Below are positions 32,202 to 33,449 of a stretch of 50,725 nt of DNA, piece after piece (positions within the stretch are counted from its first letter, which is position 1; every line of letters begins with the position of its first letter). The stretch lies in assembly GCA_000724175.1 (NCBI GenBank), contig JPGV01000028.1, positions 1-50,725 of the forward strand, given 5' to 3'. The notes beneath the pieces were generated by a model. The model did no database searches, was not told the origin of the DNA, and saw only the letters and a program-made list of their open reading frames with translations. Source of the stretch: [Candidatus Thermochlorobacteriaceae] bacterium GBChlB (GTDB lineage Bacteria > Bacteroidota > Chlorobiia > Chlorobiales > Thermochlorobacteraceae). A program made the position numbers and the translations under genes.

Positions 32202-32927
32202 TTAGTTCTTGTCTTCGGTGAGCGCTTCTTGGTCTTCTTCTTTTTGAGCCGTCGTTGCGTTGAGAATTGCGTCGGCGACCGCCGATGTAATCAGTTCAAT
32301 CGAGCGAATCGAGTCGTCGTTTGCCGGAATAACATGTGTAATCGACTCCGGGTCGCAGTTGGTATCGACCATAGCGAAAATCGGAATGCCGAGCAGATTG
32401 GCTTCTTTGATAGCGATATGCTCTTTTTTGACATCGACCACATAGAGCGCGGCGGGCAAGCGCGTCATTTCCGAAACGCCGCCGAGAATTTTCACGAGTT
32501 TTTCTTTTTCGCGGGCAAGCATCAGACGCTCTTTCTTTGTAATGATATCGAATGTGCCATCCGTTTCCATGCGCTCAATGGCGTTCAAGCGCCGCACACT
32601 TTGGCGAATCGTCGAGAAATTCGTCAGCATGCCGCCCAGCCAGCGTTCCGCCACATATGGCATTCCCGCCCGTTCCGCTTGTTCGGCAATAATGACCTTG
32701 GCTTGCTTCTTGGTGCCGACGAAAAGAATTTCTTTGCCCGTTCCTGCAATGGCTTCAACCGCATTGAGCGCGTCGTCCGCCATCGTAACGGTTTTCTTTA
32801 AATCGAGAATATGAATCCCGTTCTTCTCCATGAAGATGTAGGGTTTCATTTTCGGATTCCAGCGGCGCGTCAGGTGTCCGAAGTGTGCGCCTGCTTTGAG
32901 CAGGTCTTCGATTTGAAGTCTTGGCAT
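32202..32927 (-). CDS. rpsB: 30S ribosomal protein S2
   Basis: The 241-residue protein is a full-length S2: [20 protein letters not shown] at the start, [19 protein letters not shown], and [14 protein letters not shown], with the [15 protein letters not shown] loop and [10 protein letters not shown] near the end. The acidic tail ([14 protein letters not shown]) is usual for the family. S2 is a late-assembling protein of the small subunit. Translation starts 29 bases after a structured leader (32957-33034), described as a separate feature. The gene has no obvious Shine-Dalgarno sequence. Confidence 0.97.
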
Positions 32928-32956
32928 GAGTATCGTCTGTTGTTTGGTTTATCCGC

Positions 32957-33034
32957 TACCTTGTTTGTCTGCGCGGAATTCCTGTTCAGAACACCGCCGC
33001 GCAACTGAGCCGCCATAAGGCACTCGGCAAGGTA
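32957..33034 (-). ncRNA. Structured rpsB leader: candidate three-way-junction regulatory RNA
   Basis: The 132-base rpsI-rpsB gap contains three complementary helices on the minus strand. P1 pairs TACCTTG (33028-33034) with CAAGGTA (32957-32963). P2 pairs GAGTGCC (33019-33025) with GGCGGCTC (33007-33014) around a four-base loop, with one bulged G. P3 pairs TGCGCGG (32997-33003) with CCGCGCA (32970-32976) and contains the inner palindrome TGTTCTGAACA. P1 and P3 are perfect seven-base-pair helices, and the whole is a closed three-way junction ending 29 bases before the rpsB ATG. Autoregulatory leaders before rpsB are known in gamma-proteobacteria; this one is seen only from pairing, and its function is inferred. 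Confidence 0.55.
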
Positions 33035-33059
33035 TGTGTGTTTAAGAAATCGTTGTCGA

Positions 33060-33449
33060 TTAGCGCTTCGAGAATTGGAAACGGCGGCGCGCTTTACGGC
33101 GTCCGTATTTCTTGCGCTCCACCATGCGCGGGTCGCGCGTAAGCAAATCTTCCTTGCGAAGCGCGGAACGACTGTTCTCGTCGAACTCTAAAAGGGCGCG
33201 CGCAATCGCAAGCCGAACCGCGCCAGATTGCCCGGTGGTGCCGCCGCCTTTGACCGTAACATGAATATCGAACTTGCCGATGTTTTCCGTGGCGGCAAGC
33301 GGTTTAAGCACATCGTTGCGATGAATGTCGCTTGGAAAATAAGCCTCAATTGGGCGGTTGTTAATAAAAACTTTACCGCTGCCGGGTTTCATAAACGCAC
33401 GGGCGACGGAGGTTTTGCGTCGACCAGTTGCTGCAATTTGCTCTGCCAT
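33060..33449 (-). CDS. rpsI: 30S ribosomal protein S9
   Basis: The 129-residue protein is full length. It starts ATGRRKTSVARAFMKPGSGK and ends in the conserved basic tail DPRMVERKKYGRRKARRRFQFSKR, with the final Lys-Arg that reaches the P-site tRNA. It follows rplM by 13 bases. It shares the rplM promoter and continues into the rpsB leader. Confidence 0.97.
   Translation of the reverse strand: MAEQIAATGRRKTSVARAFMKPGSGKVFINNRPIEAYFPSDIHRNDVLKPLAATENIGKFDIHVTVKGGGTTGQSGAVRLAIARALLEFDENSRSALRKEDLLTRDPRMVERKKYGRRKARRRFQFSKR

Follow-up and report, generated by a model that had tools for sequence, protein, structure and literature searches.

A putative S2 leader upstream of rpsB in green sulfur bacteria and other Bacteroidota

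The window analyzed in this study is a DNA stretch of 50,725 nt. It comes from a Chlorobiales genome of 3.05 Mb and carries a folded RNA leader directly upstream of rpsB. Comparative sequence analysis confirms that this leader is genuine and that it is conserved among green sulfur bacteria as well as in much of the wider phylum. It does not form a new class but is related to, though diverged from, the known rpsB/S2 leader (Rfam t44). What appears new is its occurrence in Chlorobiota, Ignavibacteria and many other Bacteroidota, where Rfam does not see it, together with a hairpin (P2) specific to Chlorobia. The element is very probably the Chlorobiales form of the known leader and would serve translational autorepression of rpsB-tsf by uS2, a function transferred from the Escherichia coli homologue.

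Location and structure of the leader

The element lies on the minus strand in the 132-nt gap between rpsI and rpsB (33059-32928; rpsI stop at 33060, rpsB start at 32927), and it was found in the same gap in relatives. The two genes and the parts of the element are listed below in the order of transcription.

33060..33449, minus strand: rpsI (S9), the gene upstream of the leader, on the same strand as rpsB
32940..33038, minus strand: full extent of the leader in the match to covariance model R1, with 38.0 bits and E 2e-7 in 100 kb
33035..33038, minus strand: conserved 5' flank CACA, immediately 5' of P1, the same in E. coli t44
33028..33034, minus strand: P1 5' strand UACCUUG; two-sided changes at all 9 P1 model pairs (alignment A4)
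33019..33025, minus strand: 5' strand GAGUGCC of the P2 hairpin, the Chlorobia-specific arm, with loop UUAU
33007..33014, minus strand: P2 hairpin 3' strand GGCGGCUC; 7 pairs, one bulged base
32997..33003, minus strand: P3 lower stem 5' strand UGCGCGG, pairing with 32976-32970
32992..32996, minus strand: conserved asymmetric loop CGGUG (consensus RRGUG), containing the pseudoknot 5' strand GGU 32995-32993
32988..32991, minus strand: P3 upper stem 5' strand UUCU; 8 model pairs in the upper stem, 96% of cells paired
32979..32982, minus strand: P3 upper stem 3' strand GGAA, pairing with 32991-32988
32970..32976, minus strand: P3 lower stem 3' strand CCGCGCA, pairing with 33003-32997
32957..32963, minus strand: P1 3' strand CAAGGUA, pairing with 33034-33028
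32953..32956, minus strand: conserved GCGG (consensus GAGG), immediately 3' of P1; GAGG in E. coli
32946..32948, minus strand: pseudoknot 3' strand ACC, pairing with GGU 32995-32993
32202..32927, minus strand: rpsB, encoding ribosomal protein S2 and presumed to be the gene under regulation, followed by tsf and pyrH

A first-pass annotation of this DNA had drawn a three-way junction from P1, a hairpin and an inner helix. All three helices were found where it placed them, with 29 nt between the 3' end of P1 (32957) and the rpsB AUG, and the leader proved to be conserved in relatives. The drawing was incomplete, as it missed the upper P3 stem, the conserved loop, the CACA and GCGG/GAGG flanks and the pseudoknot. 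P1 is flanked as in E. coli, by CACA on the 5' side and by GCGGAUAAAC, one base off GAGG, on the 3' side. The G and U of the loop consensus RRGUG are invariant in the alignment of other lineages (A5) and nearly so elsewhere. The columns of the first CACA base and of the penultimate GAGG base (33038 and 32954 in the window) covary across Bacteroidota in A5, C occurring with G and A with A (E 0.04 in the phylogeny-aware null described below), and possibly represent a non-canonical extension of P1.

The rpsB AUG and the preceding 18 nt stay outside the fold, and the 3' strand of the pseudoknot is located at about -19 to -21. Neither an intrinsic terminator nor a sigma-70 promoter pattern was found on the minus strand of the 132-nt gap, so transcription attenuation is unsupported and translational control is favoured over transcriptional control. 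Masking of a Shine-Dalgarno (SD) sequence by the fold was considered and rejected, since no clear SD is present in the window from the element to the rpsB AUG.

Conservation and covariation

Sequences upstream of rpsB were taken from 60 relatives. They extended far enough at 59 Chlorobiales rpsB loci, and every one of the 59 has the element. Its consensus order is CRCA, P1 (UAYCNUG...), the hairpin, an arm RRGUGU...GGAUNCC, the complementary strand P1', UAGAGG, a short linker and AACU. The letters of P1 vary widely (UACCUUG, UAUCGCA, UACAUCG, UACCCUG), and the opposite strand changes to match. In an alignment of 26 Chlorobiaceae leaders (A2), 95.0% of cells are paired and 18 pairs show two-sided changes, compared with 31-45% paired cells in slid controls. 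The wider set (A4) gives 95.1% paired cells and two-sided changes at 30 of 32 pairs, with slid controls at 29-45%; P2 has 97% of its cells paired and two-sided changes at all 5 of its model pairs.

A phylogeny-aware null was constructed from a FastTree tree and Fitch reconstruction, with the substitutions on each branch redealt among columns by column rate. Pairs were scored by G-statistics with average-product correction, in our own implementation in the spirit of R-scape, which is not R-scape itself. For Chlorobia (67 sequences), five of the 29 nested pairs reached E <= 0.05, distributed over P1, P2 and P3, and none elsewhere among 4,950 tested, although nested pairs are favoured here because the alignment was model-fitted to the structure. 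The covariation that the first-pass annotation had asked for in P1 and P3 is thus present across relatives. Six of 22 pairs were significant in the other Bacteroidota, the pseudoknot pair among them (E 0.022); two of the three significant pairs located elsewhere are P3 pairs omitted from the structure.

Folding energy was rejected as proof of the element for being too weak. Single-sequence folding recovers P1 and the P2 hairpin, with z -2.21 for the 78 nt (5 of 200 shuffles as good) and z -0.92 for the 132-nt gap (35 of 200).

Pseudoknot

The window pseudoknot joins GGU 32995-32993 in the loop to ACC 32948-32946 in the single strand 3' of P1 by 3 bp. Its general form xGU:ACx' covaries phylum-wide as A:U, G:C and U:A, and by our own mapping the loop corresponds to J2-3 of Meyer 2009, the pseudoknotting strand of the rpsB motif. 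The x:x' pair, defined by positions not fitted to the pseudoknot, is Watson-Crick in 30 of the 34 non-Chlorobia sequences and G-U in three more, against a mean of 14.7 and a maximum of 25 in 5,000 shuffles. Several families have longer versions of 4-6 pairs, with UUGGGU:ACCCAA (L201), CCUGU:ACAGG (L197), GGGGU:ACCCC (L219, and L221 by eye), GGAGU:ACUCC (L204) and CAGU:ACUG (L192). Within Chlorobia alone the pseudoknot is too invariant for a covariation test; the GGU:ACC of the window, compared with AGU:ACU in most Chlorobia, is a two-sided change.

In family f10 and in Melioribacter (L195-L199, L181 and L184), the 3' strand of the pseudoknot, ACAGGAG, overlaps an SD-like AGGAG just before rpsB. 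The pseudoknot would therefore directly cover the ribosome binding site there.

Covariance model searches

The training set of model R1 consisted of 26 Chlorobiaceae and included neither the window nor other members of its family. Searched against the whole window genome, it gave a single match, which is the window copy (E 6.7e-6). Matches were obtained in 85 of the 98 genomes of the class, and the best match stands before rpsB wherever it was compared with rpsB coordinates. Four of the 13 genomes missed by R1 (G002, G003, G005 and G009; loci L005, L007, L009 and L010) carry the element in local search. The other nine comprise G008, whose contig ends inside rpsB, and eight genomes outside the locus comparison; none was shown to lack the element.

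Model R2 was built from 34 leaders of other Bacteroidota. It matches the window at 32937-33038 (23.4 bits, E 3e-4), and at E <= 0.1 it matches 148 of 247 genomes in a sample of the phylum. Both models also match the E. coli leader: R1 with 12.4 bits (E 0.006) and with the two flanks exactly in register, and R2 with 27.8 bits (E 1.4e-5). The R2 match is not fully independent because 12 of the 34 sequences in that model had been selected with t44, whereas the R1 match is independent.

As the first-pass annotation had proposed, the window was compared with Rfam; Rfam 15 has no match anywhere in it. The Rfam t44 model (RF00127) matched neither the window nor its relatives at E <= 1, and the element does not reach the t44 gathering threshold of 44 bits. 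Sub-threshold t44 matches occur in other Bacteroidota, the best with 39.1 bits (L094), and all 12 examined stand before rpsB.

Relationship to known leaders

The rpsB motif is described as a P1 helix capped by a junction, with J2-3 forming a pseudoknot with the 3' extension after P1 (Meyer 2009, PMC2704228). The first-pass annotation mentioned rpsB leaders in gamma-proteobacteria. The known motif is not confined to that group; the same paper reports it from Alpha- and Gammaproteobacteria and a few other Proteobacteria, and also from Cyanobacteria and some Firmicutes. The window element shares with RF00127 t44 the position directly upstream of rpsB and the order CACA, P1, GUG loop, hairpin, P1' and GAGGNNUAAC. 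The E. coli leader runs CACA, CACGUAUC ... GGGGUGCCC..GGGGU ... GAUACGUG, GAGGCAUAACCCC, with flanks CACA and GAGG..UAAC. Further likenesses to it are a GU(G) loop beside the terminal hairpin, AACU after GAGG in Chlorobi, a start codon outside the structure, and a pseudoknot from the loop to the 3' extension, which in E. coli is GGGGU:ACCCC by our own reading of the sequence and in the window GGU:ACC.

The differences from t44 are the Chlorobia P2 hairpin between P1 and P3, which makes a three-way junction at that place, a pseudoknot core of only 3 bp in the window, and a score below the Rfam threshold; the lineage does not figure in the list given by Meyer 2009. The optional P2 of the rpsB motif is located at the cap beside the pseudoknot loop, and is absent or very short in gamma-proteobacteria, cyanobacteria and Firmicutes (PMC2704228). 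Since the Chlorobia P2 stands between P1 and P3 and not at the cap, it appears to represent an addition relative to the rpsB motif, not a loss. For the known motif, PMC2704228 records no sequence mimicry of 16S rRNA (helices 26 and 35-37).

Two other ribosomal protein leaders are known close to this lineage, as far as described in Eckert and Weinberg 2020 (PMC7247131). A leader of Bacteroidia with L13 as its ligand belongs to the same operon (rplM and rpsI, plus rpsB) and the same GTDB phylum. It is set apart from the window element by its listed ligand and its position; the window element stands after rplM and rpsI and before rpsB, not upstream of rplM. The S6:S18 leader, reported as Chlorobi-restricted, is likewise a ribosomal protein leader in Chlorobi, but precedes rpsF and has another operon and another ligand. 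The open-access papers examined describe no S2 leader of Chlorobi or Bacteroidetes, and from these papers and Rfam 15 we infer that the Chlorobi/Bacteroidota form is unpublished. Of the first-pass suggestion of a new S2-binding element, the novelty holds for the lineage and for the extra P2 arm. A separate class is not supported, as the flanks, the loop, the 3' extension and the covarying pseudoknot are those of the rpsB motif; the proposed link to S2, as the likely function, gains support from the homology with the E. coli leader.

Proposed function and alternative explanations

In E. coli, uS2 represses its own translation through the rpsB leader, for which it requires its partner bS1; the S2 operator includes neither the SD nor the AUG, and how uS2 represses without covering the start site is called unclear (PMC10931766). 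By analogy, the leader probably lets S2 limit its own production in Chlorobiales. Free uS2 in excess over 16S rRNA, perhaps with bS1 as in E. coli, would bind the leader fold and keep the pseudoknot closed at the border of the 30S footprint. The closed pseudoknot would lower rpsB translation with the start codon itself unmasked, and tsf translation would be lowered too via coupling to rpsB. That an S2 leader with a covarying pseudoknot is common to E. coli, Chlorobiota, Ignavibacteria and many other Bacteroidota points to an ancient element of S2 control, one missed by the Rfam model. The deep alignment fixes the constant parts, namely the flanks, the GU loop and the pseudoknot, and therefore which parts to test for S2 binding.

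The element may be a conserved homologue of the rpsB motif with a different regulator, that is bS1 alone, EF-Ts, S9 or L13, or its fold may set the processing or stability of the rpsI-rpsB mRNA. Gene context alone cannot separate S2 from S9 or L13 as the ligand because nearly all Bacteroidota loci examined have rpsI upstream of rpsB, and the assignment of S2 therefore rests on the E. coli homologue. (Two loci, L171 and L177, were considered as lacking an upstream rpsI, and rejected; rpsI is present there with a different C-terminus.) The dependence of E. coli uS2 repression on bS1 (PMC10931766) also lends this possibility some weight. However, the homologous leader of E. coli stands between map and rpsB, with no rpsI upstream, and is a target of S2, leaving rpsB as the only downstream gene in common; we regard another regulator, or a role in mRNA processing or stability, as unlikely.

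An independent Chlorobiota S2 leader that merely resembles t44 by convergence would account for the lack of a match to the Rfam model and for the absence of P2 from the other aligned lineages, and many ribosomal protein leaders are described as having arisen repeatedly (PMC7247131). This is very improbable given the common flanks on both sides of P1, the xGUG loop and the register of the pseudoknot, and given that intermediates from other Bacteroidota are linked to t44, R1 and E. coli by matches in both directions. Random folding of a GC-rich gap, for which the unremarkable folding energy of the gap would speak, is refuted by the covariation and can practically be dismissed; the occurrence at one genomic site and the detection by a model trained without the window also speak against it. 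Autorepression by uS2 remains the preferred reading.

The P2 arm and distribution in other lineages

The P2 hairpin of Chlorobia is inserted on the 5' side between P1 and P3 and therefore creates the three-way junction. In the other lineages (A5), the space between P1 and P3 is taken by an internal loop, with GAY facing GAUGA, and there is no P2-like hairpin. P2 is weak or missing in G009 (L009). The P2 arm and the remodelled junction might form a new module for recognition or switching, through which uS2 of Chlorobi, or uS2 with bS1, would read another surface than the E. coli protein does; such a functionally distinct S2 regulator on an old pseudoknot core seems rather doubtful to us. In two Chlorobiaceae leaders (L015:1347-1489 and L026:1335-1484), about 40 nt are inserted in the junction segment that links P3 to the 3' strand of P1.

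Sampling independent of t44 used the regions upstream of rpsB from Ignavibacteria and from 27 other families, each represented by one to five genomes. The element was found in most of the non-Bacteroidia families sampled and not in the Bacteroidia-like ones. A different shared element stands directly upstream of rpsB in Bacteroidia-like loci (L200, L205, L206, L214, L216 and L226-L234), which lack the leader described here. It consists of AGUUUAGCAUCYAAA, a hairpin with a variable stem sequence but preserved pairing, UUGCUAAU, and finally GAACGUAAACU, no more than about 20 nt from the AUG. It has no match in Rfam and is a candidate for a separate rpsB leader of Bacteroidia. A sub-threshold t44 match was also observed in Thermotoga maritima, one of the control genomes, and the leader may therefore reach Thermotogota.
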